DNA from: a virus
Strand: one strand, 5' to 3'
IMG/VR virus record: IMGVR_UViG_3300009158_000211
Coordinates: 1-23,054 of that record
Length of the DNA: 23,054 nucleotides
The notes beneath the pieces are model-generated. The model worked only from the letters and a program-made list of their open reading frames with translations, did no database searches and was not told the origin of the DNA. The translations under genes were made by a program, and so were the position numbers. Below, piece after piece: positions 9,044-23,054 of this stretch; position 1 is the stretch's first letter, and each line of letters opens with the position of its first letter.

Positions 9044-9910
9044 ATGCAGGATCGTATTGTTCGCAGTTTGAGCGAGGACTTCGCCAAGATTGGGTGGGAT
9101 AAGGGTGTCAACGAGTTGAACCGCCTGTCTAGCAACCGCCTTGACGAGAGCCTTTACAGCGTCCCGGCTATCACGGCTGACCCCATTGACGGCCCCGTGG
9201 TGACGGTGGAGTTGTTGAGCCGCATTGCAGACCTCGACTTCAACGCGCTGTCCGAAAGCGATTTGGACGATCTTCTTGACGGCCTTCGTGAGAAGGAACT
9301 CCCGGAAGGTGACGCTGATCTTGCCGAGGCTGCTGAGGCGGTCGTCAAGGCTATCCTTGAGTCGCGCAAGATTATCTATGCCATTGACAAGATGGGCAAG
9401 CGCAAGAAGAAGGCTGCTCCGGGCTTCCACATGGTTGACGGTAGGGCTGTAAAGGTCAAGAAGTCCGACGCGCTCCGTTCTGCTCGCAAGAAGATTCGGT
9501 ACGATAAGCGTACTGCCGGAAAGCGGAACACTTACGAGAAGGGCAAGGGTGCTCGCATTGAGTTGAAGCGCAAGGTGCGTGGATTCGATGCAAAGTCTGC
9601 AAGGTTGAACAACCGCCGCCCGCAGAACGCAGACGACATGAGTGACGGGTTGGTGCTTGAACTGAACAGCATTCTTGGCGAGGGCAATCAGTACGGCGAC
9701 TACGGCGATACCGTGTCGCGTGTTGCTCGCATTATGAGCCTGCTTGAGGCTATCCTCGGTTCTGATGTTGGCAATGTCCTTGAGAGCGCATACGAGACGA
9801 TGGAGGGTTCGCTTCTCGCAGAGAACAGCGACCCGCAGCGTGCCTTTGGCCCTGCGCTGAAGGTTATTGCGCGTTGCTTGGAACAGATTGACGACTTGGG
9901 AAACGGCTAG
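9044..9910 (+). CDS. Hypothetical protein with a very basic middle, possible prohead core component
   Basis: This encodes 288 residues; AAGGGAG lies about nine bases before the ATG. There are three parts. Residues 1-118 are acidic and helical (DLDFNALSESDLDDLLDGL). Residues about 119-190 are strikingly basic, starting GKRKKKAAPGFHMVDG and continuing with many Lys and Arg (SARKKIRYDKR, AGKRNTYEKGKGARIELKRK). Residues about 195-288 are again acidic and helical. A 'pGfH.vdGr.vk' turn followed by a basic helix recurs, from memory, in short basic phage head proteins. The charge pattern and the position between portal and protease suggest an internal prohead protein that might contact DNA or the scaffold. 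This is inference. No enzyme motif is seen. Confidence 0.8.
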   Translation: MQDRIVRSLSEDFAKIGWDKGVNELNRLSSNRLDESLYSVPAITADPIDGPVVTVELLSRIADLDFNALSESDLDDLLDGLREKELPEGDADLAEAAEAVVKAILESRKIIYAIDKMGKRKKKAAPGFHMVDGRAVKVKKSDALRSARKKIRYDKRTAGKRNTYEKGKGARIELKRKVRGFDAKSARLNNRRPQNADDMSDGLVLELNSILGEGNQYGDYGDTVSRVARIMSLLEAILGSDVGNVLESAYETMEGSLLAENSDPQRAFGPALKVIARCLEQIDDLGNG

Positions 9911-9969: not shown

Positions 9970-10110
9970 ATGGAAGGCTTTAGGGCTGATGTTAGGTTGA
10001 GCGGAAAAAAGACGGATCGGAAGGTAGACCCGAAGTTTCGTCGCAGAGCAGAGTTGGGCATCGGCATTGACCGGACACCGTTCAAGTTCAAGGATTGGAA
10101 GATCGCATGA
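9970..10110 (+). CDS. 46-residue basic protein in the place of T4 gp67/gp68
   Basis: A short frame opens at ATG 9970 with GAGGTGG at 9958-9964 and ends in a TGA that overlaps the protease start (ATGA at 10107-10110). The product is rich in Lys and Arg (LSGKKTDRKVDPKFRRRAEL) and ends in Phe-Lys-Phe-Lys-Asp-Trp. Size, charge and position just upstream of the prohead protease recall the small T4 core genes 67 and 68, though no sequence similarity is evident. The ATGA coupling, the ribosome binding site and the lack of any other gene in this 196-base gap support it. GTG 9961 is an alternative start. The function is unknown. Confidence 0.6.
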   Translation: MEGFRADVRLSGKKTDRKVDPKFRRRAELGIGIDRTPFKFKDWKIA

Positions 10111-11768
10111 GCAAGCAACTACTTATTGACGCAGCACCAATCAAACTTTCGCTTCAAGAGAGCGAAGGCGGCAAGACGGTTGCGCGTGGCGAGTTTGCGC
10201 GTTGTGATGTTCCCACGCAGAACGGGCGCACCTATCCGCGTGGCGTGTACGAGCGGGAGATCAAGAAGTTGCAGGAAAGCGTTGGTTCGCGCCGCGCTTT
10301 CGGTGAGTTGGATCACCCGGACGATGGCAAGACGAAGTTGAGCCGAGTCAGTCACTTGATCACAAAGTTGACTGTGGACAAGAACGGCGTTGTCATTGGC
10401 GAAGCCGAGATCTTGGATACTCCGAACGGACGCACTCTCAAGGCTATCCTTGATAGTGGTGCAGAGGTTGGCGTATCTAGCCGGGGCTTCGGTTCGACCC
10501 GTGCTATGCCTGACGGTTCATCTATGGTTGGCGAGGACTTCGTTCTGCGTTCGTTCGACTTCGTTGCCGACCCTGCCATGAAAACTGCCTACCCGCAGAT
10601 CTTCGCGGAAGATGTCGAGATTGATGCGGAGCAGGACTTCCTTGCCGAGTTCCCTGAATTGGCAGAGGACCTTCGTTCGCGTGAGCGGGAGGCTGCAAAG
10701 CGTGATGCCGAGGCTGCCGTTGGCGCGATGATTTCCGCCAACGAAGAGAAGGTTCGCAGCGAGATGCGCGAAGCCTTTGAGAAGCAGTTGGCCGGGGCTA
10801 TCGTGAGCGTGCGCGAGAGTGTGACCGAAGGTTTGCGGGAAGAGTTTAGTTCCGACCCGGAGATTGGCGGAGCGCGTGCGGTGCTTGGGAAGATTGCTTC
10901 TCTTATTGGCACCTTCAGCGGTTCGGGCAGCGGCGACGAGGTTGCGCTTCGTGATGCTGTGCGCGAGCGCGACTTGCAGATTGCCTCGATGAAAGAGAGT
11001 TTGGACAAGGCCACGGACATTGCGCGTCGAGCGTCCTACGCACTTGTGGTCGAGCAGCGGATTGGCGGGCATCCTATGGGTGAGCGTATCCGCAAGGTGC
11101 TTGGCGACATTAGCGCGTTTAGCAGTCGGGATGCTTTGCAGGCCCGATTGGAGGACATTGCCGGGGAGTACGACGAGATCGTATCCGAGCGGCAGCAGCG
11201 CGTGAACGAGGACCACGCCTCCGAGGTTGAGACGCTGCGCAATCGGATTGCAGAGTTGGAGGCTTCTTTCGAGGAAGCGTCCGAACAGATTGAAGCGTTT
11301 GAGACTGCCGACGAAGAGGCGCAGGAACGCTTTGAGAGCAAGATTGATGCTTTGGTGCAGAAGCACAAGTCGGAGTTGGACGAGGCAAAGTCGGCTGTGT
11401 CCGAAGCCCTTGAAACTGCCAAGCAGTATCGGTCTTTGGCCGAGAGCAAGGATGCAGAGGCAAAGTCGTCTGACATGACCGCTTACAAGGCTCGCAAGAC
11501 TTCCGGCATGACGAACGCAAGCCGTTTGATGAAGATGATTGAAAGTATTGACGACAAGGATGCCGTTGATGCTATTATCGACGAAAGCGGAACGAACGAC
11601 ATTAGTGACCGTGACCTTTCGGAAGCGGTTAGGAAGTTGAAGCGTGGCCGAGTAAGCACGGGAGCAATGACGGAAGAAGTTGCACCAAACATCTTGCGTG
11701 ACCCAATGTTGGGTGGCGTAACAAACGCACAGTTTCTTGAACTTTCAGGCATCAAGCGAGCGAGGTAA
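10107..11768 (+). CDS. Fused prohead protease (gp21-like) and scaffold protein
   Basis: This encodes 553 residues from ATG 10107; an upstream in-frame TTG lacks support. Residues 1-170 are a T4 gp21-type prohead protease: NGRTYPRGVYE, then GELDHPD with catalytic His70, GEAEILDTPNGR, and GVSSRGFGS with the nucleophile Ser at 124 or 125, followed by FDFVADPAM. From about 185 to 480 the chain is almost entirely charged helix with heptads (EVETLRNRIAELEASFEEAS, then FEKQLAGAIVSVRESV), as in scaffold protein gp22. The C-terminus has short conserved-looking ends (LRDPMLGGVTNAQFLELSGI) that could bind capsid protein. In T4 the protease and scaffold are separate genes, 21 and 22; here one reading frame covers both. 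It should assemble inside the prohead, cleave capsid and core proteins, then degrade itself. The protease call is strong, the scaffold call fairly strong. Confidence 0.9.
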   Translation: MSKQLLIDAAPIKLSLQESEGGKTVARGEFARCDVPTQNGRTYPRGVYEREIKKLQESVGSRRAFGELDHPDDGKTKLSRVSHLITKLTVDKNGVVIGEAEILDTPNGRTLKAILDSGAEVGVSSRGFGSTRAMPDGSSMVGEDFVLRSFDFVADPAMKTAYPQIFAEDVEIDAEQDFLAEFPELAEDLRSREREAAKRDAEAAVGAMISANEEKVRSEMREAFEKQLAGAIVSVRESVTEGLREEFSSDPEIGGARAVLGKIASLIGTFSGSGSGDEVALRDAVRERDLQIASMKESLDKATDIARRASYALVVEQRIGGHPMGERIRKVLGDISAFSSRDALQARLEDIAGEYDEIVSERQQRVNEDHASEVETLRNRIAELEASFEEASEQIEAFETADEEAQERFESKIDALVQKHKSELDEAKSAVSEALETAKQYRSLAESKDAEAKSSDMTAYKARKTSGMTNASRLMKMIESIDDKDAVDAIIDESGTNDISDRDLSEAVRKLKRGRVSTGAMTEEVAPNILRDPMLGGVTNAQFLELSGIKRAR

Positions 11769-11771
11769 ATA

Positions 11772-13373
11772 ATGGAAAGTCGTCGGCTATTGGCAGAGCA
11801 GAGTGGTGGCACCGCAGCAGATGCGGGTTTCGTTCAGAAGGTTGCGTCCAAGTGGTCGCCGCTCCTTGAGGGAGTAGACGATCCGTGGAACCGTGGCGTT
11901 CTTGCGATCCTCCTTGAGAATCAGATGACGCACCTGCGTTCTCTGAACGAGGAGACGCTTTCGACGGGCGTTGGTTCCTTCACGAAATACATCTTCCCCA
12001 TCCTTCGCCGGGTGTTCCCCAACCTTATCGCCAATCAGATTGTCTCGGTTCAGCCGATGACCTCTGCCGTTGGCGGTATCTTCACCTACGAATACAAGTA
12101 TGGTGCAACGAAGGGTACGACGACCGGGGGAACCAACCTCATCGAGAACTTTCAGAAGTACTACTCTTCGGAGTTTGTTGACTACGAAGTGAAGGTTCCG
12201 ACCACGGCCACGGACGGCATCAAGGTTCTTTTCAACGACGCGACCAACGCGACCGACCGTATTCCCTACAAGTGGCTTCCGCTCTCGCCGCTCAACGCGA
12301 GCAAGGGCTATGTCCTCACGCTCTATTGGACGAGCGGTGCTGTCCTTCGCAGCCTCACCGACAACGGTAGCGGCGTTCTCGTTCCTGCTGTTTCGGCAGC
12401 AGGTTGCAGCGGCACCGTGGACTACACCACGGGCGCATACACGCTCGACCTCACGCCGTTCCCGCCCACGGCTTCGTCGGTTATCTACTCGACCTACTAC
12501 TACAACTCGGAGTTGGTCAGCGGCACCACGGCCCCTGCGGTCAATGGTTCGCTCTACGCCAACACCGATCAGGTCGCGCAGATCCCGGACATCAACCTCG
12601 ACATCACGCTCAACACCGTCACGGCGATCACTCGCAAGTTGAAGGCTCGTTGGTCTGCCGAGGCTGTTGACGACCTTCGTGCCTTCCACGGCCTCAACGC
12701 CGAGACGGAGTTGGTCGCGGGTATGGCGAACGAAATCTCGCTTGAACTCGACCGTGAGATCATCACCGACCTCATCACGGGCGCAAAGTTTAGCGCGACT
12801 TACAACTTTCAGACCGGGCCTACCCGTCCTACTGCGGGCAACGGCGGTCAGTTCTCTGAAATCGACAGCATTCGCGGTCTGCTCACGATCATCGAGTCGG
12901 TGTCGGCGCAGATTCACCGCGCTTCGCTTCGCTCCCCGGCCAACTTCATTGTCGTCAGCCCTTCGGTTGGTGCAATGCTCGCGCAGTTGACCACGGCAGG
13001 CGAGTTTATGATCGTCAACCGTGCGCTCGACCCGATGGTTGCGCCTTCCTACGGCCCGATGAACTCCAACTTTGGCGTGAGCCGTCTTGGTACGCTCATG
13101 AACAAGTTTACGGTCTATCAGGATCCGTTCCTTGACCCCTCTTCGACGGGTTCGGTTCCGAATGTTCTCGTTGGCCTCAAGGGTTCGTCGTTCCTCGACG
13201 CGGGTTATGTGTACGCTCCGTACATCCCGCTTCAGGTCACGCCCACCTTCCTTGATCCCGACGACTTCACCTTCCGTAAGGGTCTGCGGACTCGCTACGC
13301 GAAGAAGATGCTCCGCCCGGAGTACTATGGTGCCATTACGGTACAGGGTATGCCCACTGTCGGCGGTATCTAG
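11772..13373 (+). CDS. Major capsid protein, T4 gp23-like
   Basis: This encodes 533 residues. The N-terminus follows gp23: KWSPLLEG at 27-34 (T4 KWKPLLEG), AILLENQ at 45-51, then FPILRRVFPNLIANQIVSVQ and PMTSAVGGIFTYEYKYG. The C-terminal half shows the HK97-like fold region: AEAVDDLRAFHGLNAETELV, EISLELDREII, PANFIVVSP, and GYVYAPYIPLQ near the end. LNE at 58-60 matches the place of the T4 maturation cut. An insertion at about 180-247 has its own beta pattern (LTDNGSGVL at 195-203, GTVDYTTGAYTL), shared with the tail sheath. Leucine codons are mostly CTC and CTT, unlike the TTG-rich neighbours, as expected for the most highly expressed gene. GAGG lies about nine bases before the ATG, and a double hairpin follows the stop. 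The assignment is firm. Confidence 0.95.
   Translation: MESRRLLAEQSGGTAADAGFVQKVASKWSPLLEGVDDPWNRGVLAILLENQMTHLRSLNEETLSTGVGSFTKYIFPILRRVFPNLIANQIVSVQPMTSAVGGIFTYEYKYGATKGTTTGGTNLIENFQKYYSSEFVDYEVKVPTTATDGIKVLFNDATNATDRIPYKWLPLSPLNASKGYVLTLYWTSGAVLRSLTDNGSGVLVPAVSAAGCSGTVDYTTGAYTLDLTPFPPTASSVIYSTYYYNSELVSGTTAPAVNGSLYANTDQVAQIPDINLDITLNTVTAITRKLKARWSAEAVDDLRAFHGLNAETELVAGMANEISLELDREIITDLITGAKFSATYNFQTGPTRPTAGNGGQFSEIDSIRGLLTIIESVSAQIHRASLRSPANFIVVSPSVGAMLAQLTTAGEFMIVNRALDPMVAPSYGPMNSNFGVSRLGTLMNKFTVYQDPFLDPSSTGSVPNVLVGLKGSSFLDAGYVYAPYIPLQVTPTFLDPDDFTFRKGLRTRYAKKMLRPEYYGAITVQGMPTVGGI
12309..12512 (+). repeat. Beta domain insert in capsid protein (copy 1 of a shared domain)
   Basis: This covers residues about 180-247 of the capsid protein. 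It contains LTDNGSGVL, then SGTVDYTTGAYTLDL and a closing strand IYSTYYYNSE. The same order of motifs, with an identical LTDNGSGVL, is found in the tail sheath (21238-21438). It is flanked by regions that align with ordinary gp23 sequence. Confidence 0.7.
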
Positions 13374-13381
13374 TTGACCGA

Positions 13382-13399
13382 CTAATCCTTCGGGGTTAG
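13382..13399 (+). other. UUCG-loop hairpin after the capsid gene
   Basis: CTAATCC at 13382-13388 pairs with GGGTTAG at 13393-13399 (seven pairs, one U-G) around a TTCG loop closed by C-G. cUUCGg is an exceptionally stable tetraloop. It lies eight bases after the capsid stop and just before the terminator, so it may shield the 3' end of the capsid mRNA. Confidence 0.7.
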
Positions 13400-13402
13400 A
13401 GC

Positions 13403-13440
13403 AAGGGCCGGACCTCGAAAGGGGTTCGGCCTTTCTGTTT
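13403..13440 (+). terminator. Rho-independent terminator with GAAA tetraloop
   Basis: A 14-pair stem is formed by 13403-13416 (AAGGGCCGGACCTC) and 13421-13434 (GGGGTTCGGCCTTT), counting G-U pairs, closed by GAAA at 13417-13420. TTTCTGTTT follows at 13432-13440. Position 30 bases after the capsid gene and before a new ribosome binding site makes this the clearest terminator in the window. Confidence 0.88.
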
Positions 13441-13453
13441 GTGGAGTTGAAGT

Positions 13454-14011
13454 ATGAAGTTCCGTTACATCTCGAATGATCGTAATCCTAAGCGCGTGTG
13501 GCCTATTCAGTTGGCAACGGGCGAAATGGTGCTTGTTCCGACTTCTCATTGGATTGAAACCGAGCATGACTTGTCTGCGTGGGTTTCAGGTGGCTTGATC
13601 AAGGGTGGCCCGGTTGAGCAAGATTCCGCTCCGCTTGTGCAACCGATTGCACAGAAGGAGGTTGTCGTTGAACCACCAAAGGATCGTATGGCGGCGTTTG
13701 CCGAGGCAATGGGCAATGCGTTTGCCAAGTCTGTTCCAAAGACTGTACCCGAACCCACTCCTGCTCCCGCCTCGGCTCCCGCTGCACCTGTGGTTGAGCC
13801 TGTATCCGAGCCTGTACCTGAGCCTGTGGCATCGGCGCAGGCTATCGAGGATTTGGTTGAGGAAGCAGCGGAGATTGCAGAAGCAGATGTCACTTCAATG
13901 ACCCGCAAGCACCTGTGGGCCGAGGTCGTTTCGCGTGGTCTGAATGTTGGTTTGGTCTACAACAACACGACAAAGGCAGAGATGCTCCGGGTTCTTTCGA
14001 CGGGAGAATAA
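13454..14011 (+). CDS. Pro/Glu/Ala-rich protein with C-terminal SAP/HeH-like helix pair
   Basis: This encodes 185 residues; GGAG lies seven bases before the ATG. Residues 1-50 form a small beta-rich domain (MKFRYISNDRNPKRVWPIQL, TGEMVLVPTSHWI). Residues about 65-125 are a flexible linker of repeated Val-Pro-Glu-Pro and Ala-Pro units (PTPAPASAPAAP, EPVSEPVPEPV). The C-terminal 45 residues hold an acidic helix and MTRKHLWAEVVSRGLNVG followed by TTKAEMLRVL, a pattern like SAP or HeH helix-extended-helix motifs. The gene starts straight after the capsid terminator. A second protein of similar build, at 20330-20818, shares the N-terminal pattern, the Gln-Pro-Ile-Ala-Gln sequence and the linker type. 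Such proteins could be head decoration or neck parts, but the function is unknown. Confidence 0.8.
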   Translation: MKFRYISNDRNPKRVWPIQLATGEMVLVPTSHWIETEHDLSAWVSGGLIKGGPVEQDSAPLVQPIAQKEVVVEPPKDRMAAFAEAMGNAFAKSVPKTVPEPTPAPASAPAAPVVEPVSEPVPEPVASAQAIEDLVEEAAEIAEADVTSMTRKHLWAEVVSRGLNVGLVYNNTTKAEMLRVLSTGE

Positions 14012-14012
14012 G

Positions 14013-14756
14013 ATGTTGCACGAAGAAGCCCTTGATGCTGCGATCCCTTATGAGGCTCTAGGTTTGGGTGAGCCTGTTGCCGTTGTCACGCGCATGGGAA
14101 CGTTCGTCTCCAAAGGAAAGGTGATGAAGGTGTTTCCTTATGGTGCTGTCCAAGTGCGCGAGTACGACTTGGAACACGGGGGTTCGCAGGCTATCTCCGA
14201 CCGTATCTATGATGCGGATCTGTATCTGTTCTTGCCTACTGATCCGCCCGAGGACAGTGAGATTGGCGACCCCGATGCTGCGGAGGTGCCGGTTCTACTC
14301 GACCCTGAAATGGAAGCCCCTCCTGTTTCTGATGCTGTGTCAGAATCCGCGCAATCGAATGCACTTCCCAAGTTGCATCGTGTGGACGGCGATTGGATCG
14401 TCTACCCGGACGGCACGCGCTATCACAAGTCCGTGATGAAAGCGGGGATGATGGAACAGGATTGGGAGTGGAAGATTGAAGAGGCAGACGAGAAGCCTGC
14501 ACCAAAGCAGAAGGAGGTTCGGAAGGATGACCGAACTGCGTCTGCGAAGGTCGATGTGAACTCGCTTCCAAAGGACTTGCAGAAGCGTCTGAAGGGCGTT
14601 TCAGAGTTGGACGAGGATGCCCGTGACCGGGTGTTGTCTGCTATCTCCGAGGCTGCTATGCGTGCGTTCAAGGCAGTTGGCGTGAAGGATACCGAAGTGT
14701 ATGGTCGGATCGTCAAGTTGCAGGAAGCAATCAAGCCTGTCTTGGAAGGGAAGTAA
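14013..14756 (+). CDS. Hypothetical protein of the neck region
   Basis: This encodes 247 residues from ATG 14013, one base after the preceding stop region, with GGGAGA eight bases upstream. The N-terminal 75 residues look like an SH3-like beta barrel: PVAVVTRMGTFVSKGKVMKV, FPYGAVQVREYD. An acidic Pro-rich linker follows (about 78-110), then a short strand pair DGDWIVYPDGTRYHKS, a Lys/Glu-rich stretch (KPAPKQKEVRKDDR), and a helical C-terminus (LDEDARDRVLSAISEAAMRA). No family is recognised. By position after capsid and terminator and before neck-like genes it probably encodes a virion or assembly protein. Codon use, spacing and length support it as real. Confidence 0.78.
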   Translation: MLHEEALDAAIPYEALGLGEPVAVVTRMGTFVSKGKVMKVFPYGAVQVREYDLEHGGSQAISDRIYDADLYLFLPTDPPEDSEIGDPDAAEVPVLLDPEMEAPPVSDAVSESAQSNALPKLHRVDGDWIVYPDGTRYHKSVMKAGMMEQDWEWKIEEADEKPAPKQKEVRKDDRTASAKVDVNSLPKDLQKRLKGVSELDEDARDRVLSAISEAAMRAFKAVGVKDTEVYGRIVKLQEAIKPVLEGK

Positions 14757-14758
14757 GC

Positions 14759-15502
14759 ATGGCGACACCGCAAAGCGCAGCAGAGATCAAGGGGTTTATC
14801 GCTCGAAATCTTGGTGCGCCCACGGTGGCAGTTGAGTTGACTGACGATCAGTATAATGATGCCATTTCGGAAGCAAACTTGTGGTTCATGGGCCTTATCG
14901 GTCAGATGAAGAACAAGGTGCTAACGATTCAGCCGGACGGCGGAGCGTTTGATGTTGCCGAGGACTGCCTTTCGGTGGTCGAATGCCATTTTGACATTCA
15001 TCGTGCGGGCCTGTTCGATCAGTTTAGTTGGGCGGGCGTGGAGTTGAGCCCATACAGTTTCAGCGGAGGCGGTGGCTACGGCGGAGGCGGTTACAGTGGT
15101 GGTGGTTACTCCGCTATTGTTCAGTCAATGCAGTACCTTGAGCAAGCCCGGCGCATTCTGTCTGCCGACCGAGATTGGGAATGGGATTGGCAGGCAAAGA
15201 AGTTGCGAATCTACCCGACGAGCGGCGACATTGGCACGAATGTCTTTGTTGTCTACATGGTGGACGAGATGGATTTGGGGAAGGTTCGGCCATACGAGTA
15301 TCGGTTGATTCGCAAGTATGCGTTGGCCGAAGCAATGACGATCTTGGGCAATGTTCGGAGCAAGTATGCAGACGGGCCGAGCGCAACAGGATCGATCACG
15401 CTCAATGGTGCAGATCTTCTTGCCAATGCAGACATGATTCGTGATACTGTTAGGGATCAGATTTTGTCCTTGCGCCCACCTGCTAATTTCTTTACGGGAT
15501 AG
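14759..15502 (+). CDS. Putative neck / head-tail connector protein
   Basis: This encodes 247 residues; GGAAGGGAAG lies just upstream of the ATG. Layout: an N-terminal helical part (SAAEIKGFIARNLG, TDDQYNDAISEANLWFMGL), a beta part around FDVAEDCLSVVECHFDI, a Gly-Tyr-rich loop (103-117), then AIVQSMQYLEQARRILSA, DWEWDWQAKKLRIYP and a C-terminal helix PYEYRLIRKYALAEAMTILG. This resembles neck or adaptor proteins of large myoviruses, in which a helical bundle caps the portal and a beta part meets the tail. The same type of protein is often annotated only as structural. The position between capsid and sheath genes supports it. The exact equivalent (T4 gp13 or gp14) cannot be decided from sequence alone. 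Confidence 0.65.
   Translation: MATPQSAAEIKGFIARNLGAPTVAVELTDDQYNDAISEANLWFMGLIGQMKNKVLTIQPDGGAFDVAEDCLSVVECHFDIHRAGLFDQFSWAGVELSPYSFSGGGGYGGGGYSGGGYSAIVQSMQYLEQARRILSADRDWEWDWQAKKLRIYPTSGDIGTNVFVVYMVDEMDLGKVRPYEYRLIRKYALAEAMTILGNVRSKYADGPSATGSITLNGADLLANADMIRDTVRDQILSLRPPANFFTG
15061..15113 (+). repeat. Gly-Tyr-rich low-complexity tract
   Basis: Imperfect GGCGGAGGCGGTTAC-type units encode SGGGGYGGGGYSGGGYS within the putative neck protein (residues about 102-118). Three G3-4-Y blocks are visible. It lies between a beta part and a helix, so it reads as a flexible exposed loop. Confidence 0.8.
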
Positions 15503-15525
15503 CGTTGGCTGAACAGGAGTTGAAG

Positions 15526-16548
15526 ATGGCGCGATCAATGTTTGACTTTATCTCAAGCACCAATGTCCTTCTTGAAGGCATTGACGCGCATGAGGATTGG
15601 ATGCAGCACTTGGACGGAGTGCGTGATGCCCGTGCGAAGGCAATGGCCGACTACACGACGCAGATTTCGACCGAGTTTGACGACCGGGCGAAGGATGTTG
15701 CGGCTCACCACCACCACACAATCCAAGAGAACTACAACGCCGCAGGGATGTATGTGGTGCCGATTGATAAGGTGAACCACCCGCGCAAGACGGGTTTGAG
15801 CGGCCCTTATCGTTACCACACGGGTAATGTTCTTTACTATGACTACACCAACCGGGCCTACTTTGACCCGGCTGAAAAGCGTAACTTGTCTATGCAGGAG
15901 GCTAGAGAAATCATGGGTATCCGTAATCGTTTGGCAGAAGATCAGAACCGCTCGGACTCCGAAATTTCGGTGTTCTTTGATGATCGAAGCACCGCTCTCG
16001 CCGCCTACCGGGTTGCGCAGGAGTTGGGCTTGAAGCGTGGCGAGGTCACTTACGACTCGACCGTGGATCGCCGCTATGGTGTTGGTCAGTATGCTGTCCG
16101 TCTTGCGCCTCACGTGCGCGAGACGAAGCCTGAGATCTTCTACGAGTTCTTGGAGAGCATCTACGATCACATTGTCGAAGAAGATGTTGATCAGTTTGAG
16201 TGGCTTATGGCCGAGGCAAAGGGTGAGAAGGCTCGCTACGGCGGTGTTTCCAACAAGGAGTTGGTCAACAAGGGCAATGTCCTGCACCTTCCCGATGATG
16301 GCAAGTTTGCGGGCGACAAGCAGTTGCCTTCGGGTTCGCTTTCGCTTGGCAGCAACTACAACGCGGTTCGCTTGAAGGCGCGTGACAAGCGTACCAAGGA
16401 CGGTCGTTTGCAGTTTGCCGCTACCAAGTTGCCGTGTGGCCGGGCTTCGCGCACGGCAGGGTCGGGTGCCAACTTCGGTCGCCGTTGTTGGGATGGTCAG
16501 ATTCCGGCTTGGGCTGCTCGCAAGGGTGCCGCAACTCGCGCCAAGTAA
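15526..16548 (+). CDS. Hypothetical virion-region protein
   Basis: This encodes 340 residues from ATG 15526, with AGGAG six bases upstream; an in-frame TTG at 15505 has no better claim. The N-terminal 70 residues are helical and end in four consecutive His (61-64). Then come a beta region (MYVVPIDKVNHPRKTGLSGP, NVLYYDYTNRAYFDPA), helices (NLSMQEAREIMGIRNRLA), a possible alpha/beta segment (SEISVFFDDRSTALAAYRVA), and a basic C-terminus with two Cys (CGRASRTAG, GRRCWDGQ). I do not recognise a family and see no clear catalytic set. Position among neck genes suggests a structural or assembly role. The long continuous frame, ribosome binding site and codon use show it is a real gene. Confidence 0.78.
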   Translation: MARSMFDFISSTNVLLEGIDAHEDWMQHLDGVRDARAKAMADYTTQISTEFDDRAKDVAAHHHHTIQENYNAAGMYVVPIDKVNHPRKTGLSGPYRYHTGNVLYYDYTNRAYFDPAEKRNLSMQEAREIMGIRNRLAEDQNRSDSEISVFFDDRSTALAAYRVAQELGLKRGEVTYDSTVDRRYGVGQYAVRLAPHVRETKPEIFYEFLESIYDHIVEEDVDQFEWLMAEAKGEKARYGGVSNKELVNKGNVLHLPDDGKFAGDKQLPSGSLSLGSNYNAVRLKARDKRTKDGRLQFAATKLPCGRASRTAGSGANFGRRCWDGQIPAWAARKGAATRAK

Positions 16549-16572
16549 ACAATGCACCTAGCAGGTTGATCC

Positions 16573-17055
16573 GTGGCACTTTACGGCGGAAACGCTAGTG
16601 AGTTGAACCTCTACCGTTTCTACGAAGAGGAACGGATCAACCTGTTTGGTCAGCAGATTGACTACTATGTGCTGTCTCGCGGAGCGAATGTAGATCCGCT
16701 TTACAGTGAGCCTGCACCTAGTTGGTCGTTCACGCAGTATTCGCTCGTAGGCGCAGTCACCTATCAGCAGATGGACAACCGGGATCCGTCTGTGCGTGAT
16801 GAAGGTCTTGTTATCGAGTTCGATGCGGAAGCCTACTTTGCCTACAACGAATGGGAGAAGCGCATTGGTGCTAAAATCCCGAAGGAAGGCGACGTTCTGT
16901 TCTGCATGGGGCAGTATTTTGATGTGGTCAATGCGGCTTCCGGGGGCAACTTTGTAGACACCGTGAATGTGGTCGGATACAAGATGCTATTGAGGCGTCG
17001 TGAGAAGTTCGATCCGAACCGAAAGTTTGTTTCAGAAGGCGGATTGATTCCGTGA
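16573..17055 (+). CDS. Putative head-tail joining protein
   Basis: This encodes 160 residues from GTG 16573, preceded by AGGTTGAT. The chain is mostly beta: QQIDYYVLSRG, PLYSEPAPSWSF, then RDEGLVIEFDAEAYF, PKEGDVLFCMGQYFDVVN and VNVVGYKMLLRRRE, ending FDPNRKF. A 'P.eGDvl...yFdV.......vn.vGy' order after a strand carrying 'DEG' is typical of small proteins found between capsid and sheath genes in large myoviruses and annotated as neck or head-closure parts. No T4 equivalent can be assigned by eye. The short 24-base gap upstream and the GTGA overlap downstream place it in one unit with its neighbours. Confidence 0.65.
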   Translation: MALYGGNASELNLYRFYEEERINLFGQQIDYYVLSRGANVDPLYSEPAPSWSFTQYSLVGAVTYQQMDNRDPSVRDEGLVIEFDAEAYFAYNEWEKRIGAKIPKEGDVLFCMGQYFDVVNAASGGNFVDTVNVVGYKMLLRRREKFDPNRKFVSEGGLIP

Positions 17056-17840
17056 GTGGTGCTATGAGCCTATCTAAACTAGCGGAAGATCTTGTTGCGT
17101 TGGTCGAATACAAGGACACCGAGGTTGTTCGCCGTATTCGTGTCGGTCAGAACATGATTGGTCTGAACAAGAAGCAGCAGGCTGTGAGTGGAAATCCGCA
17201 AGCAACGCACCTTTGGAACATGAAGCGTGCGCAGCAAAACGCGGCGGCAGAGCATGAGCGCACGCCCGCAGCAAAGGCTGAAAAGGCGGCGGCGGAAGTG
17301 GAGAAGTCCAAGGTGGATTGGAAGGATAAGTTCCGTTCAATGGCCAAGAATGTAGGTCATCAGTTGGCGCACCCGTTCGTGGCTGCAAAGGACTTGATAA
17401 CGAACCCGGCCGCACGGAAGAAGTTTGGAAAGTATCTCAAAGGTGCAGTTCGCAAGGAGGTCAAAGAGACGAAGCACCTCAAGGAGACGATTGGAAAGGC
17501 TTTGCGCGGAGAGAAGGTTTACAAGGCTGACCGTGACCGGGCGATCAACCAAGCAGTTGATCTTGTGAAGGTGGCATTGATTGGAGCAACGGTAGCGCAT
17601 CTGTTTCAGGGTGGCGTTCTGAAGGCCATTGGTGCGTTGGCTTCGCCTGTGGACGAGGTAGTGGGCGTAGCGATTGATAAGCCGCTCCGAGACATAACCG
17701 AGAAGGTCTTTGGCACTTCTCACGGTCTGCTCCCTTCCTCGTTCTATGAGGAAGCGGAAGATGTGAACGATGTGCTTGACCGGATTATCGATCAGATCTT
17801 GGACGGGATTGCGCAGTCGGACTTTGACGAGAAGATCTAA
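17052..17840 (+). CDS. Hypothetical virion-region protein with a hydrophobic helix
   Basis: This encodes 262 residues from GTG 17052, which overlaps the preceding stop (GTGA) and has GGCGGA eight bases upstream; ATG 17064 is a plausible alternative. The first 100 residues are charged helix (KAEKAAAEVEKSKVDWKDKF). A Lys-rich middle follows (KYLKGAVRKEVKETKHLKET). At about 170-205 lies a hydrophobic stretch (LVKVALIGATVAHLFQGGVL, KAIGALASPVDEVVGVAI), long enough for a membrane segment or a buried helix hairpin. The end reads HGLLPSSFYEEAEDVNDVLD then a helix. I recall similar C-termini ('LP.SfYE') in unnamed phage head-region proteins. The function is unknown; an amphipathic ejected or neck protein is possible. 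Confidence 0.72.
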   Translation: MSGAMSLSKLAEDLVALVEYKDTEVVRRIRVGQNMIGLNKKQQAVSGNPQATHLWNMKRAQQNAAAEHERTPAAKAEKAAAEVEKSKVDWKDKFRSMAKNVGHQLAHPFVAAKDLITNPAARKKFGKYLKGAVRKEVKETKHLKETIGKALRGEKVYKADRDRAINQAVDLVKVALIGATVAHLFQGGVLKAIGALASPVDEVVGVAIDKPLRDITEKVFGTSHGLLPSSFYEEAEDVNDVLDRIIDQILDGIAQSDFDEKI

Positions 17841-17846
17841 AGGTAC

Positions 17847-17874
17847 TTGACGGCGTGTGATAGTCTGCTAGAAT
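17847..17874 (+). promoter_or_regulatory. Sigma-70-type promoter with extended -10
   Basis: The -35 box is TTGACG (17847-17852), followed by a 16-base spacer and -10 TAGAAT (17869-17874). TGC directly precedes the -10, giving an extended -10 element. Transcription would begin near 17881. It lies in one of the few intergenic gaps of the late region and points to the 65-residue gene downstream. Confidence 0.7.
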
Positions 17875-17886
17875 GCTCGCATTGAA

Positions 17887-17907
17887 GGGCAGGAATAGGT
17901 CCTGTCC
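17887..17907 (+). promoter_or_regulatory. Leader hairpin in the 5' untranslated region
   Basis: GGGCAGGA (17887-17894) pairs with TCCTGTCC (17900-17907), eight pairs with one G-U, around a five-base loop ATAGG. It would sit near the 5' end of the transcript from the promoter at 17847. No T-run follows, so it is not a simple terminator. It may stabilise the mRNA or be a protein-binding site. Confidence 0.55.
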
Positions 17908-17925
17908 AAGCATAGGAAAACGGCA

Positions 17926-18123
17926 ATGAACAAGGTTTACGGGAATGTGTTGGAGAGTGGTCGCGCTCGGTTGGAAGATGCGATGAACAAGGTTGACTGC
18001 TTCATGATCGACCGCAAGTTGATTGAAACGCTTGAGCGTGCGGTGGCCGACTACAAGCAGGCCGTGGCAATCCTCGAAGCGGCAGAGGCCGAGCGTGCTG
18101 CGCGGTGGCAGCGCAACGCCTAA
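17926..18123 (+). CDS. 65-residue coiled-coil protein behind its own promoter
   Basis: AGGA lies eight bases before ATG 17926. The product is almost wholly helical and charged: GRARLEDAMNKVDCFMIDRK, then LIETLERAVADYKQAVAILE and AAEAERAARWQRN. Heptad spacing of Leu, Val, Ala and Ile suggests a dimeric coiled coil. It follows a sigma-70 promoter and a leader hairpin, which sets it apart from the long late operon. A one-base overlap (TAATG) joins it to the zinc-binding gene. No family is recognised. A small regulator or an early-expressed host-interaction protein is possible, but only the position suggests this. Confidence 0.7.
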   Translation: MNKVYGNVLESGRARLEDAMNKVDCFMIDRKLIETLERAVADYKQAVAILEAAEAERAARWQRNA

Positions 18124-18482
18124 TGCGTAGGAACCCCGCTCTCGCTATGGCGAACGGCGTATCGTTCGTGTGTTCCACCTGCGAGAAGTTTTGGTGGGGG
18201 GCGGAGCGGGGCATGGACGGCTGCAAGGCAGTCTATGATAAGACCCCTTGTAGTGGGCCTCTAGGGGGCAGGGGCTTCCCGCAGTATGAGGGGCCGCTGA
18301 AGGGCAACCTACTAGCCTTCTGCTTCGCCACAGGGGAGCCTTCGACCGTGGCCGTGACTACCCCCGATAGCCTCATGGTCGGCGCATCGGAGAAGGGGCT
18401 AGAAGTGCTAATGCAATACTCCCCTGAAGGCGAGGCTCCGCGCTTTGTGACGGGCGAGAAGCCCGATCTAAAGCATGGGTAG
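18123..18482 (+). CDS. Small zinc-binding protein with unusual codon use
   Basis: This encodes 119 residues from ATG 18123, which overlaps the preceding stop by one base; ATG 18147 is an alternative. Four to five cysteines form a likely zinc site: CSTC (C17, C20), C34 and C43 with a later C67. GPLGGRGFPQYEGPLKG between them gives a characteristic turn; similar 'C..C ... GPl.g..FP.Y.GPL' proteins occur in phages without known function. Leucine codons are CTA six times, CTC twice, CTG once and TTG never, and GGG glycine is common, unlike neighbouring genes that favour TTG. This hints at separate origin. It is translated with the coiled-coil gene from the internal promoter and overlaps the next gene by eight bases. 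Confidence 0.75.
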   Translation: MRRNPALAMANGVSFVCSTCEKFWWGAERGMDGCKAVYDKTPCSGPLGGRGFPQYEGPLKGNLLAFCFATGEPSTVAVTTPDSLMVGASEKGLEVLMQYSPEGEAPRFVTGEKPDLKHG

Positions 18483-19323
18483 TTTCAAGTATCGACAGCC
18501 CGTGGTGGGCGGCGGTATGCCTGCGATCTATCTGACCGAAGATGCGATAAAGACAGCGAACGAGATTGCTTCCGAAATGCCGGAGCGGATCAAGCGTGGC
18601 ATGGAGTTGTTTCTGCTCGGAGCGGCCAAGATCTTGCAGGAAGGCGTGAAGGCACGTGCGCCTAGTCTGCCCGGAGTGGGCTACTACGCAGAGGACTTGG
18701 AAGTCGTGCTTGTGGAGGGCATGGGCGACGAGGTTGGGATTGCCTTGCTCTACAAGAACAAGCCCCGCAAGTTGAACATTGCAACGGAGGGCCGAAAGAC
18801 AGCACTCCTATTCAAGCCGCATGAGAAGAGTCCAAAGTGGGTTCGTGCATTGGCGAAGTATCAGCCGTGGCCTCCATACATGGTGCCAACGATGCCAAGC
18901 AAAGCAGACGCGCAAGTGATTGCGCGAACGATCACGGAGAAGGAAGAACAGGACTTGCATGACCGGATTATGGTGAACCGACGAAGGATCGAGTTCGACT
19001 TGAAGGAAGCAGGTCTGAGGGAGAATGCGGTGAGGACCAACACCAAGCCGTCCGACAGCGTGAGCGTGATAGACGACATTGGGTATTCGGTGTTGCGTGC
19101 GGAGTTCGGCTACGGCGGGCCTGTGCTTCCGCATTGGCGACCCGCGCTTGCGGAGATGGCAACTGCCTACGACGATCTTCAGAAGGCCTTTATCGAGTAT
19201 GTTCAGACCGGGAAGGAAATCGGGTTCGATCTTCCGCTCTACAAAAAGGTTGCATCAAACGAAACGAGCAGGTATGACGATAAGGTGCAGGATAAACTTG
19301 CGCCCTATGCAAAGGGCGGATAG
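18475..19323 (+). CDS. Putative tail-completion protein, HK97 gp10-like
   Basis: This encodes 282 residues from ATG 18475, overlapping the previous gene by eight bases; ATG 18514 is an alternative start. The part at about 40-90 (RIKRGMELFLLGAAKILQEG, then VKARAPSLPGVGYYAEDLEV) follows the pattern of HK97 gp10-type neck/tail proteins: a long helix with 'GA..i...ak..aP', a loop, then strands. A Pro/Trp-rich loop (YQPWPPYMVPTMPSKADAQV) and a helical basic segment come next, and YGGPVLPHWRPALAEM near the C-terminus resembles the closing part of such proteins, where a tail-facing loop precedes a helix. These proteins join head and tail or set tail attachment. The length is greater than usual (about 120-180), so the call is tentative. 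Confidence 0.5.
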   Translation: MGSFKYRQPVVGGGMPAIYLTEDAIKTANEIASEMPERIKRGMELFLLGAAKILQEGVKARAPSLPGVGYYAEDLEVVLVEGMGDEVGIALLYKNKPRKLNIATEGRKTALLFKPHEKSPKWVRALAKYQPWPPYMVPTMPSKADAQVIARTITEKEEQDLHDRIMVNRRRIEFDLKEAGLRENAVRTNTKPSDSVSVIDDIGYSVLRAEFGYGGPVLPHWRPALAEMATAYDDLQKAFIEYVQTGKEIGFDLPLYKKVASNETSRYDDKVQDKLAPYAKGG

Positions 19324-19355
19324 GTCAGGCACATCTTCCTATGGAGAGGTTAGTC

Positions 19356-19559
19356 ATGGACATTCAGAAGTTGAACCTTACCCTTGCCGACATTGAAGTT
19401 CAGTTGCTCCACAAACTTTCCGTCTTGGAGAGCGAGGAAGAGGAGATGGACGAGATGGACGGCGAAGAGGACTGCGGTTGCGGCGATGCCGAGTGCGAAG
19501 GCGACTGCGGTGAGATGGACGACGAGGAAGAGATGGATGACGAGGAAGAGGACGACTAA
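19356..19559 (+). CDS. Small acidic cysteine-containing protein
   Basis: This encodes 67 residues; GGAGAGG at 19343-19349 gives the correct spacing for ATG 19356, so the in-frame ATG at 19341 is rejected because it lies on that site. The first 25 residues form a helix (MDIQKLNLTLADIEVQLLHK). From 26 on the chain is nearly all Glu and Asp, with four Cys in DCGCGDAECEGDCG (C40, C42, C47, C51), and ends in an acidic run. The helix could dock on a partner, and the tail could bind divalent metal or mimic DNA. No family is recognised. Good ribosome binding and tight packing between genes support expression. Confidence 0.72.
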   Translation: MDIQKLNLTLADIEVQLLHKLSVLESEEEEMDEMDGEEDCGCGDAECEGDCGEMDDEEEMDDEEEDD

Positions 19560-19580
19560 CCTCGCTTCTTTGGTGCGGCT

Positions 19581-20330
19581 ATGGGCGCGATTGGCACGGT
19601 CGGTCTAAAGGACTTTGACCGGGGTATGATACTCACGCTCGGCTCGCAGTTGATCGACATTCAGATCGATAGCGACACCCGGAAGGCGTATGCTCTCTCG
19701 GTTCCGTCATTGACGACCGATGTGCCGTACTACGCCCCGTATGTGCCTGTGTTCTTCACGATTCCCGAAGATGTGTTTCAGCAGTTTCGGTTGCCGTGCG
19801 TTGTGGTGCGCCGTAACGATCTGACACCTGCTTTCGAGCGGTCTCCCTACTACGGTTATCAGCGAACAGTCGCGCCTGATGCCAAGAAGGTGATGATCCA
19901 ATCCGGGGGCAAGGTTCTTACAGGCTACAACAAGTATGTGTCTGCACCATTGCCGACCCCGTTCGACATTTCCTACGACATACAGGTCTATGCCCGGACG
20001 CAGAACACGGGCATCCCGTTGTTGATGAGCGTTCTGAAAGTTTGTAGGCCACCTTTTTTCTCTGTTGCAGTTTTTGATAGTTTAGGCGATAAGCGTCTTT
20101 ACGATGCGGGCGAGGTGTCGGTATCGGACGGTTCAGAATTGGCAGACATAGCCGACCGGACGATCTCTTGGACGATCTCGTTTAGCATTCGCGGAGAGTT
20201 AGACTTGGAAGCGCAGACAACTGAAGATAAGATCGTGACAACCTTGCCCAACATTGGCATACAGGTTAGCACGATTGAGACGAATGTTCGGATCAACGCC
20301 GAGATCGCGGCAAGGCACAAGGATTGTTGA
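19581..20330 (+). CDS. Putative tail terminator / neck protein
   Basis: This encodes 249 residues. Order: strand-rich N-terminus, then VPYYAPYVPVFFTIPEDVFQ, PCVVVRRNDLTPAFER, a loop, PFDISYDIQVYARTQNTG, LLMSVLKVCRPPFFSVAV, FDSLGDKRLYDAG and SDGSELADIADRTISWTISF. 'PFDI.Y.i.v.aR......l......' followed by a strand with 'D..G..R.Y' resembles proteins just before the sheath gene in large myoviruses, thought to cap the tail tube or sheath (T4 gp15 or gp3 role). This equivalence is inferred from position and fold pattern only. A short AT-rich patch at about 20041-20090 (TTTTTTCTC, TTTTTGATAG) stands out against the GC-rich surroundings but stays in frame. It ends in a TGATG junction with the next gene. 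Confidence 0.62.
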   Translation: MGAIGTVGLKDFDRGMILTLGSQLIDIQIDSDTRKAYALSVPSLTTDVPYYAPYVPVFFTIPEDVFQQFRLPCVVVRRNDLTPAFERSPYYGYQRTVAPDAKKVMIQSGGKVLTGYNKYVSAPLPTPFDISYDIQVYARTQNTGIPLLMSVLKVCRPPFFSVAVFDSLGDKRLYDAGEVSVSDGSELADIADRTISWTISFSIRGELDLEAQTTEDKIVTTLPNIGIQVSTIETNVRINAEIAARHKDC

Positions 20331-20818
20331 TGGCTTGGTATTACTACACCGGAAGCACCATTCTCTCGATCCCGATTGGGAAGGGCGAGGTTGTCGCAGC
20401 CCGCCCATACTCCACGATCTTTGTTGATTCGAGCATCGAGAACAGCGCGTCTTTCAAGCGGCTTGGCAAGGTGCTGCGCCGCACGGGTGCGCCCAAGGAT
20501 GGGGTTGACCTCGTTCCCGCGCAACCGATTGCGCAGGTCGCGGTTGAGAAGCCCCATTTGTTCTCTGATTCTTTCGTAGAGGGCAAGGCGGCATTGACGA
20601 CGAAGGCGAAGGTGGTAGCAGATGCGCCGCTTCCCAAGTCTGCCGATGCTGTGCTTGACGAACCCGTAGCAGCCTCGGTTGTTGCGGAAGATGCTCCTAG
20701 TGAGCCTGTGGTTGATGCTCCTGCTGACGAACCTGTTGAAGTTGAAGCGGCTTCCGATGAATCTGTGGTTGCACCTCTGCGCAAGCGGCGTGGCTTTGCC
20801 AAGACTGAAACCGACTAA
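20330..20818 (+). CDS. Pro/Glu/Ala-rich protein, partner of the 13454 gene
   Basis: This encodes 162 residues from ATG 20330, which shares its A with the preceding stop (TGATG); AAGGA lies upstream. Residues 1-50 are a small beta-rich domain with MAWYYYTGSTILSIPIGKGE and PYSTIFVDSS, comparable to the first 50 residues of the protein at 13454-14011. A shared QPIAQ follows, then an Ala/Val/Asp/Glu/Pro-rich linker (SEPVVDAPADEPVEVEAASD), ending in RKRRGFAKTETD. It lacks the C-terminal SAP/HeH-like part of the other protein and instead has a short basic tail. The two may be distant paralogues. It lies just before the sheath gene. The function is unknown; a tail or neck accessory role is suggested by position. 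Confidence 0.72.
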   Translation: MAWYYYTGSTILSIPIGKGEVVAARPYSTIFVDSSIENSASFKRLGKVLRRTGAPKDGVDLVPAQPIAQVAVEKPHLFSDSFVEGKAALTTKAKVVADAPLPKSADAVLDEPVAASVVAEDAPSEPVVDAPADEPVEVEAASDESVVAPLRKRRGFAKTETD

Positions 20819-20838
20819 ACTTTTGATAGGAGTTGACG

Positions 20839-23054
20839 ATGCCGACCTACACTTATCCCGGCGTTTACATCGAGGAAGTGCCTAGCAATGCCGTTGGCAT
20901 CAACGGCGTTTCTCCGTCTATTGGCTCTATGATTGGCGGCTCCTTGCAGGGGCCGACCAACACGCCTACGGCTGTGACCTCGTTCACGGACTATGTTGGC
21001 AGATTCGGTTCGTTCACTTCGCTTTCGCGCATGACGACCTCGGCCTACGCCTTCTTTCAGAACGGCGGGCAGAACCTTGTAGTGGTGCGCGTTACGCCTA
21101 CCGATGCTACGGCTGCGGCAGGCTACATTGCGCTCCCCAAGACGGGCGAGGCTTTGACGGCTGATGCAGGCACGCTGACCGCGACCTTCGCCGCCTTCAC
21201 GGGTGCGAACGGCACGGACAAGACCCCGGTTGCGCCTTCGACTGTCTCGATTGTGATTACGAGCGGTACCGCGGCCAACGGAACGCTGACCGACAACGGT
21301 TCGGGCGTTCTGACTAGCGCGGTTGTCGGCTTGAGCGGCACCATTGACTACGCTTCGGGCGAGATCACGATCAGCGGCCCTGCGGGTTCGACGCTATCTG
21401 CGGCAGTCTTTACCGCTGCCTATGACTACAAGACCTTCTCGTTCGACGTGAAGTGGGAGGGTGCGCGTGGCGACGACTATGTGGTGGCCATTTCGGGCGA
21501 CACCAACTACTACACGGTGAACACCGCGACCTACACCCGCTATGTGGTGCAGATTGTGGACACGGCGAACTCCAACTCCGTGCTTGAAACCTTTGACGCT
21601 ATCTCGTTCACGGATCCAAGCAGCACTTCGTTCATTGCGACTGTGTTGAACGACGAAGTTACCGGGTCGCAGTATGTGTCTGTGACCGCTGAGGGCAACA
21701 ACGAGGGCGTATCGACCTTCAACGGCGTGCCTGTGACGGCTGCGGCTGTGACCTCGGCTCCTGCCTACAACGGCACGGTTCGTTCGTTCACCTACGCGCT
21801 TGCGAATGATGTGGCCCCGTTCTCGCTGACGGGTTCCTTCGCGTTGGAGAACACGATTGCCGCTACGCCTGTCGTCGGGCAGACCTTTGCGGTGAGCGGC
21901 GCAAACTTGGTGCTGACCTACACGCTCCCGGCTGCCTATCAGACGATTGCGCAGGACATTGCAGCGGGTCGCGGCACCGTTACGCTTACGACGGCACAAA
22001 CCGACTTGAACGGAACGATCTTGGTTGCGAAAGCAAGCGGCAATGTTGCCGGTTCTGTCGCGTTTACCGATCAGACCTTCACCTATGTTTCGTCGTCCGA
22101 CACTTTCACGGTTTCAGGAACGCTCGTTGCGGGTAACGTTGTGAGTGCTTCATCGGGCATTTCGATTGTGGGTGGAAACCTTGTGGCTACCATCACGCTT
22201 GTAGCAGGCGGCGGCAATCCCGATCCCGAGTTCGACCCTGCAACGGTTACGCTTCAGACGGCTTCTAACTTGGAGCCGATCAACTACGCTATCGGAACGG
22301 TTCTGATTGCCGACGATGGTGAAGGCAACATCACCGATCTTGGAACGGGAACGGCGGTTGACATTGTTCTCGACCCGTCTGCTTCTAACACCATTGACTA
22401 CGGATCGCCCACTTCGGTTGGTTCGCTGTCGTTGACTTGGAAGTTCTTGGACAACCCTGCGCGTGGGCCTTCGGGCGCGGGCGTGCAGACTGTAACCTAC
22501 TACAACCCTGCCGCTGCGACTTCGGCCTCTGTCACGCTTTCGGGTGGTTCGGACGGCTCTGCGTTGACGCGCTCGGTGGTGTCTGCCCCGGCTTTGGCGG
22601 CAAGCAACAGCGGCCTCTACTCGCTCAACACCGTTGAGAGCATCCTCAACATCTGTATCCCCGACTTCGAGACGGACTACTTGGTGTCGCAGGATCTTGT
22701 GGACTACTGCGAGACGCGCAAGGATCGCTTCTGTATCTTGTCGGTTCCGAGCGGTCTGACGAATGCACAGGCGGTCAACTACAAGCAACTGACGCTTGCC
22801 AAAAACTCGTCGCGTGCGGCCCTCTACTACCCGCACATTCGCATCATCGACCCCGTTTCGGAGACGGAGGTGTTGCAGCCTCCGGGCGGTCACATCTTGG
22901 GCGTGTATGCTCGGACGGACGCTACGGCGAATGTTTCGACGGCACCTGCGGGAACGACCCGTGGCACGCTCAACTTCTCGACGGGTTTGGAGTTCTACAT
23001 GACTCCCGATCAGGCAGGCGTGACGAACCAAGTCGGCGTAAACAACTTGGTGCA
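20839..23054 (+). CDS. Tail sheath protein (3' truncated by window end)
   Basis: AGGAG at 20828-20832 lies six bases before ATG 20839, and the frame stays open for 738 codons to the window edge. The N-terminus is diagnostic of contractile tail sheaths: TYTYPGVYIEEVPSNAVGI, then IGGSLQGPTNTPTAVTSFTD and YVGRFGSF. The C-terminal part seen (about 610-738) shows the conserved sheath core: RKDRFCILSVPSGLTNAQAV, LYYPHIRIIDP, PPGGHILGVYARTDATANVS, TAPAGTTRG. Between them is a large beta-rich insertion region (about 100-570) with one clear and one possible copy of a domain also found in the capsid protein. Sheath subunits contract to drive the tube through the host envelope. T4 gp18 has 659 residues, so this one is already longer. 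The assignment is firm. Confidence 0.95.
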   Translation, partial: MPTYTYPGVYIEEVPSNAVGINGVSPSIGSMIGGSLQGPTNTPTAVTSFTDYVGRFGSFTSLSRMTTSAYAFFQNGGQNLVVVRVTPTDATAAAGYIALPKTGEALTADAGTLTATFAAFTGANGTDKTPVAPSTVSIVITSGTAANGTLTDNGSGVLTSAVVGLSGTIDYASGEITISGPAGSTLSAAVFTAAYDYKTFSFDVKWEGARGDDYVVAISGDTNYYTVNTATYTRYVVQIVDTANSNSVLETFDAISFTDPSSTSFIATVLNDEVTGSQYVSVTAEGNNEGVSTFNGVPVTAAAVTSAPAYNGTVRSFTYALANDVAPFSLTGSFALENTIAATPVVGQTFAVSGANLVLTYTLPAAYQTIAQDIAAGRGTVTLTTAQTDLNGTILVAKASGNVAGSVAFTDQTFTYVSSSDTFTVSGTLVAGNVVSASSGISIVGGNLVATITLVAGGGNPDPEFDPATVTLQTASNLEPINYAIGTVLIADDGEGNITDLGTGTAVDIVLDPSASNTIDYGSPTSVGSLSLTWKFLDNPARGPSGAGVQTVTYYNPAAATSASVTLSGGSDGSALTRSVVSAPALAASNSGLYSLNTVESILNICIPDFETDYLVSQDLVDYCETRKDRFCILSVPSGLTNAQAVNYKQLTLAKNSSRAALYYPHIRIIDPVSETEVLQPPGGHILGVYARTDATANVSTAPAGTTRGTLNFSTGLEFYMTPDQAGVTNQVGVNNLV
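21238..21438 (+). repeat. Beta domain insert in sheath (copy 2 of a shared domain)
   Basis: This covers sheath residues about 134-200. It carries LTDNGSGVL (150-158), SGTIDYASGEITISG and a final strand AAYDYKTF, in the same order and spacing as the capsid insert at 12309-12512. The nine-residue core is identical at protein level, with 22 of 27 bases the same. Confidence 0.7.
22279..22452 (+). repeat. Possible degenerate third copy of the shared beta domain in the sheath
   Basis: This covers sheath residues about 481-538. It reads ADDGEGNITDLG, then NTIDYGSPTSVGSLSLTWKF. The D-[ND]-G-x-G turn, the [GN]-T-[IV]-D-Y strand and a following beta strand keep the order seen in the two better copies, but identity is low. 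Confidence 0.4.

Follow-up and report, generated by a model that had tools for sequence, protein, structure and literature searches.

A six-stranded beta module that appears to link a capsid insertion domain and a tail sheath insertion in tailed phages

Do the head and the tail of a phage carry the same surface domain, and if so, how did the domain come to be in both? The question is raised by a virus record of 23,054 bases (hereafter the window), in which the major capsid protein (MCP) and the tail sheath protein both contain the nine residues LTDNGSGVL. An earlier note on this DNA took the shared motif as the mark of one beta domain inserted in both proteins and copied or exchanged within this genome. 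Taking all parts of the answer together, we consider it likely that both segments belong to one widespread module family, which forms the I-domain of the capsid protein and an insertion of the sheath, that the two copies have separate descent, and that the sheath copy has been replaced as a unit.

The model of the MCP had T4 gp23 (7vrt) as its top match (Z 20.9, rmsd 3.6, 265 aligned), which together with the Pfam Gp23 match identifies the carrier of the MCP copy, and of that copy only, as a gp23/HK97-fold capsid protein. The core of the sheath model matched solved sheaths in the model search, with Z up to 38.3. The sheath comprises 738 aa within the window and 866 aa in the full frame on L091, a contig of 54 kb that comes from the same virus and has an MCP 100% identical to that of the window. 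The window, L003 and L091 were counted as one virus, and L005/L092 and L038/L093 as pairs. Positions 10095-11768 encode a 557-aa protein in which a match to a head maturation protease PHROG spans residues 4-228 only; the rest appears helical by eye and might represent a fused scaffold. In Listeria phage LIS04, the capsid gene is preceded by a gene of similar length, which is annotated 'peptidase'.

Table 1 Features of the window that bear on the module
Feature	Position	Strand	Residues	Remarks
Major capsid protein (MCP), gp23 family	11772..13373	+	533 aa	Pfam Gp23 E 1.3e-65; PHROG 138 major head protein
Module copy in MCP	12297..12506	+	about 176-245	I-domain position; module HMM E 7e-17 (training set included this copy)
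LTDNGSGVL in MCP	12354..12380	+	195	
Tail sheath protein	20839..23052, past window end	+		PHROG 23 tail sheath E 2.5e-24
Module copy 1 in sheath	21226..21432	+	130-198	Module HMM E 8.7e-16 (training set included this copy); MCP-only HMM 6.8e-12
LTDNGSGVL in sheath	21286..21312	+	150	
Possible degenerate second sheath copy	22288..22440	+	484-534	Window i-E 8.8, not significant alone

The match between the two segments is far beyond chance. BLASTP aligned the MCP with the sheath at E 1e-6 (33/86 identical), and the Smith-Waterman score of 118 exceeded the maxima of 1000 shuffles (94) and 1000 local shuffles (98) as well as the score of the reversed sequence (63). Downstream of LTDNGSGVL, the two proteins have SGTVDYTTG and SGTIDYASG and then a Tyr-rich closing strand (YSTYYYN / TAAYDYK). 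The core of the module can be written D-[DN]-G-x-G-x-L ... G-T-[IV]-[DN]-Y-x-[TS]-G, in a total of about 65-70 residues. A module HMM was built over three rounds from module copies, and further HMMs were built from single classes of protein, with training copies that had themselves been gathered with the mixed HMM. The HMM from MCP copies alone found the window sheath at E 6.8e-12, the one from sheath copies alone found the window MCP at E 2.1e-11, and one from the copies of the remaining proteins, which is not sheath-free because two of its sources (L056 and L082) match sheath PHROGs, found the MCP at 5.5e-15 and the sheath at 1.9e-10. None of these three HMMs had a match at 1e-3 among 7935 reversed ORFs.

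AlphaFold2 models of the MCP (50-row alignment; mean pLDDT 74.8, pTM 0.65) and of the sheath (18-row alignment; mean pLDDT 76.6, pTM 0.64), compared by strand order and register, both show six strands in the module, with matching order and matching register relative to the motif. The predicted strands lie at residues 183-188, 191-197, 202-205, 213-216, 223-226 and 238-244 of the MCP, where pLDDT is 81-90 in 10-residue blocks over 171-250, and at residues 137-140, 148-152, 157-160, 166-170, 175-179 and 191-204 of the sheath, where it is 67-89 in 10-residue blocks over 131-200. A favourable turn motif (DNGxG, DYxTG) might instead have arisen by convergence in unrelated beta domains, as the abundance of small residues in both segments would allow and as the baseplate wedge protein gp6, which has the core alone in common (see below), could suggest. 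We judge convergence to be quite unlikely, given cross-class HMM E values of 1e-11 to 1e-12, the lack of matches among the reversed ORFs and the like order of the six predicted strands. Motifs at the expected sites, BLASTP, cross-class HMMs and strand order thus bear out the claim that MCP and sheath carry the same kind of domain.

In the MCP, the module aligns at the insertion position of P1 gp23, T4 gp23 and T4 gp24, which we take to be the I-domain position, in part from the naming in the P1 paper; the alignment with P1 and T4 gp23 agrees with the comparison to the gp23 insertion domain drawn earlier. When a profile of 27 module copies was compared with all PDB sequences, the one match at E <= 1 was P1 gp23 (9ukm, E 5.6e-4), a protein matched at 3.8e-7 among P1 and T4 proteins and ORFs. 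The MCP model aligned with 9ukm over 383 residues (rmsd 7.2, Z 16.9), the longest alignment among the best 50 rows. The module HMM recognised none of T4 gp23, T4 gp24, T4 gp18 and P1 gp22, the last two being the sheaths of T4 and P1, in which, unlike in the window sheath, the module goes undetected. By these comparisons of sequence, the MCP module is a gp23-type insertion (I-)domain.

According to the P1 paper, the P1 I-domain is beta-rich and protrudes outward, and it contacts, together with the N-terminus of the adjacent monomer, the P-domain of the adjacent capsomer, adding stability (PMC12810830). The I-domain of P1 gp23 (9ukm, 9vl4; PMC12810830) occupies the same chain position as the MCP module and is recognised by the module profile. 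The section of that paper in which the I-domain is compared with capsid domains of T4, N4 and phiKZ, and in which A-1(L) and R4C are named, brings in no tail proteins (PMC12810830). In Bacillus phage SP-15, the capsid gene (9476-11993 of L009) is annotated as two joined pieces around a putative endonuclease gene, an interruption that lies some 450 bases past the module.

In the sheath, an alignment of 18 sheaths places the module between conserved N- and C-terminal parts of the core, and so in a variable insertion, as had been proposed. The placement is like that of the additional domains described for type 2/3 sheaths, which are inserted in the core, are often beta-sandwiches and lie away from the tube contact (PMC9230969). 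Unlike the domains described there, the window's insertion is tied by sequence to a capsid I-domain and has signs of replacement as a unit. A second insertion region of the sheath (residues 311-560) probably holds a degenerate second copy (Table 1), as judged from copies that relatives carry at the same alignment columns (i-E 0.005 in L093, 0.0022 in L094, 2.5e-12 in L061, 5.1e-12 in L074 and 1.2e-15 in L057). In the sheaths of L061, L057 and L074, two or three module copies occupy more than one insertion site, which suggests repeated insertion or internal duplication.

How far does the module extend beyond these two proteins? At i-E under 0.05, it was present in 81/89 MCP ORFs and 17/30 sheath ORFs (1-3 copies each) of the fetched loci, counts that refer to ORFs and not to viruses, that include fragments and repeat contigs and that for the MCP are biased, since MCP loci were partly fetched via the motif itself. 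Six of the eight MCP ORFs without the module were pieces of 91-211 aa, and two were full-length (L026, L027). At the same threshold the module was found in 15 other ORFs, among which L056 and L082 have the sheath PHROG matches mentioned above, L088 matches a baseplate wedge PHROG, and gp19 of Stenotrophomonas phage S1 has six copies. S1 gp19, a putative tail protein of 1201 aa, is a subunit of neither shell nor sheath; PHROG 6128, to which this likeness refers, was matched at the level of segments only, by the MCP segment at 2.7e-6 and by the sheath segment at 1.5e-4.

Viral contigs were also scanned with a DNA pattern for GT-I-D-Y-x-T-G, which gave at least 120 loci, a sample in which proportions are to be read as such. 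In each of the 120 loci listed, the pattern match was in frame in an ORF of at least 60 residues. Baseplate wedge proteins resembling gp6, defined by a profile match of at least 100 positions before the module, accounted for 91 of these ORFs, with 6 MCPs, 5 sheaths and 18 others; all five gp6-like ORFs that were submitted matched PHROG 219, a baseplate wedge subunit. A module-HMM domain under 0.01 was present in 93 of the 120 listed ORFs and absent in 27 when the 120 were searched alone, and was missing from 25 of the first 80 when these were searched among all ORFs of their loci. In this survey, L106 encodes a DNA primase in which the module HMM finds no domain, and it was set aside as a chance match.

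The gp6 copies have only a 28-column core in common with the other copies (hhalign probability 95.5, E 1.5e-8, ten gp6 copies). In gp6-like ORFs, including L117, L137, L142, L160 and L179, this core lies near the C-terminus (median position 537 for a median length of 619, 60 ORFs). The corresponding region of T4 gp6 was not recognised by the module HMM, and the ten-copy gp6 profile found nothing at E <= 1 in the PDB. Searches with less than a family profile also returned little: against annotated phages, tblastn with single segments gave 4, 3, 0 and 12 records only (15 of the 19 rows being major capsid proteins by annotation), a phmmer search of the PDB with the sheath segment gave weak matches only (best E 0.17), and fold searches of BFVD and the PDB with whole models gave MCP and sheath matches in which the module was not isolated. 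A Pfam scan of five proteins yielded no module-specific entry, the capsid Gp23 match running across the module. The MCP and sheath segments appear, on the strength of the profile matches, to be members of one widespread family of six-stranded beta modules found in several tailed-phage structural proteins. The module proposed for two proteins is therefore present in head and sheath as the earlier note had it but is not special to them, since the baseplate wedge and other tail proteins carry it too.

If both copies belong to one family, was one of them recently copied from the other in this genome? The nine identical residues, with 22 of 27 bases shared between the MCP and sheath genes, could be read as recent copying or conversion. 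The agreement in DNA adds nothing to the match, because codon usage predicts about as many shared bases: given identical residues at all nine positions and codon frequencies taken from five window genes, 19.85 of 27 are expected (sd 2.0; P of 22 or more, 0.21), and we rejected the 22/27 identity as evidence of copying. The identity of the nine residues is itself unstable, the sheath of the relative L005 having DLTDTATAGLL at this site.

Module copies also cluster by protein and not by genome. In a tree of 108 copies and 67 columns, the window sheath copy forms a four-row group together with sheath copies from three relatives (SH-aLRT 96), and the MCP copy falls into a six-row group made up of relatives' MCP copies (SH-aLRT 93). 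Ranked by identity to the window sheath copy, its own MCP stands at 24 of 62. Across 14 sheath copies from 11 genomes, the MCP of the same genome was never the most similar, its best rank being 2 of 62, in a ranking that excluded pairs with fewer than 30 shared columns and in which the L004 row stood in for the L005 MCP copy, identical rows having been dropped. Recent head-to-tail copying is strongly disfavoured by these comparisons, and we regard it as very improbable; the proposal of copying or exchange within this genome is not upheld. Separate descent of the MCP and sheath copies within this phage group is supported instead by the grouping of the copies. An ancient head-to-tail transfer could still have taken place, because the module tree is built on 67 columns and leaves 65 of 105 inner branches open.

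Comparison with the sheath of L005 points to a different kind of exchange, between related phages. Amino-acid identity between the window and L005 sheaths is 97% for residues 1-105 and 100% for 106-129, falls to 53% in the module, and is 91% for 202-310 and 98% for 561-866; region 311-560, at 72-80%, is a second divergent stretch. In 30-base bins, DNA identity is 1.00 in four bins at 21100-21219, 0.33-0.80 over 21220-21429 and 0.93-1.00 in the next five bins. The divergent block thus begins and ends within about one bin of the domain borders, with bin identities switching at 21220 and 21429. The module data favour the topology (window, L093)(L005, L094) and reject that of the rest of the sheath (AU p 0.017), with modest bootstraps of 52 and 74 in the five-taxon module tree, whereas the rest of the sheath favours (window, L005) by 91 log units.

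Silent sites give a similar contrast. Between the window and L005, silent differences amount to 14/38 (0.37) in the module versus 10/123, 5/73 and 32/295 (0.07-0.11) outside it. Between L005 and L094 they amount to 12/58 (0.21) in the module versus 40/83, 21/40 and 121/239 (0.48-0.53) outside, a figure weakened because L093 and L094, a pair not thought to have been swapped, also differ less inside the module (10/42, 0.24) than outside (47/85, 23/29 and 111/246, 0.45-0.79). Rapid point mutation under diversifying selection could likewise lower amino-acid identity at the module, and region 311-560 is variable as well; yet silent differences between the window and L005 rise alongside the amino-acid ones, L005 is nearer to L094 inside the block than outside it, and the topology flips at the module, so that we think this explanation unlikely. 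Replacement of the sheath module as a unit between related phages, with edges near the domain borders, is supported by the sequence data. On the simplest reading, a module from another sheath gene was taken up either in the window lineage or in that of L005, the latter being the simpler case and implying an L094-like source; this direction is tentative.

The MCP copy behaves less clearly. Between L015 and L094 its identity is 75%, versus 96-98% in the main flanks and 69% and 89% in the linkers, and in some pairs the MCP copy and its linkers change faster than the main flanks. Silent differences gave no clear sign of import of the MCP module (0.30 versus 0.18-0.35). Elsewhere in the window, a 262-aa ORF at 17052-17840 has no PHROG match, and its DNA has no aligned counterpart in L005 (150-base bins of 0.00 over 17100-17550), most neighbouring bins being at 0.80 or above. 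Identity to L005 also drops locally at 9300-9600, with bins of 0.55 and 0.45, inside a 288-aa ORF at 9044-9910.

What might the module do? In tailed phages it would be an accessory domain of several structural proteins. On the head, by analogy with P1, it would stand out from the shell and help to clamp neighbouring capsomers. On the tail, where it is inserted in the variable accessory portion of the sheath, it may touch adjacent sheath subunits or the surroundings. The MCP and sheath copies would have descended separately in the phage group, with replacement of the whole sheath copy between related phages. In published models, accessory sheath domains lie away from the tube and could contribute to sheath stability or to adhesion (PMC9230969).

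Adhesion offers an alternative role: the module could be a ligand-binding domain, for example a glycan-binding one, on head and tail alike. This is a possible though rather doubtful reading, and it is compatible with clamping. The proposals that accessory sheath domains (PMC9230969) and Ig-like domains (PMC9022992) aid adhesion are in its favour, as is the greater divergence of the module than of its flanks in some pairs for both proteins. On the other side, the P1 I-domain is described as stabilising the capsid (PMC12810830), and no binding-domain family was among the Pfam matches at E <= 1 in the five proteins scanned. Binding of glycans or of a decoration protein, as suggested in the earlier note, is a possible, putative function of the module beside the clamping role that we prefer for the head.

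Promiscuous Ig-like domains, capsid I-domains and sheath accessory domains are already known. Ig-like domains of one type occur across capsid, tail and baseplate proteins, with a mosaic distribution between phages (Fraser et al. 2006, cited in PMC9022992), and the module is like them in its spread over particle proteins and its mosaicism. It differs from them in having its own D[DN]GxG...GT[IV][DN]YxTG signature and in occurring in sheaths; Ig, Big, I-set and FN3 had no Pfam match at E <= 1 in the five proteins, and these families diverge strongly. What appears to be added here is a link in sequence between the capsid I-domain and sheath domains, together with evidence of cassette-like replacement. 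Among the matches listed in a literature search, no title or abstract opening joined the capsid I-domain with sheath domains, which is not proof of absence.

The capsid I-domain is in this way tied by sequence to insertion domains of sheaths and to baseplate and tail proteins, and the module profile can be used to spot such domains in unannotated phages. The sheath gene provides a natural case of apparent domain-sized replacement in which the adjoining stretches are 91-100% identical. More speculatively, an exchangeable beta cassette with edges at domain borders might be a general plug-in of contractile-tailed phage particles, carried on the head shell, the sheath and the baseplate wedge. If this were true, head, tail and baseplate could have a common surface chemistry or a common subunit-clamping geometry.
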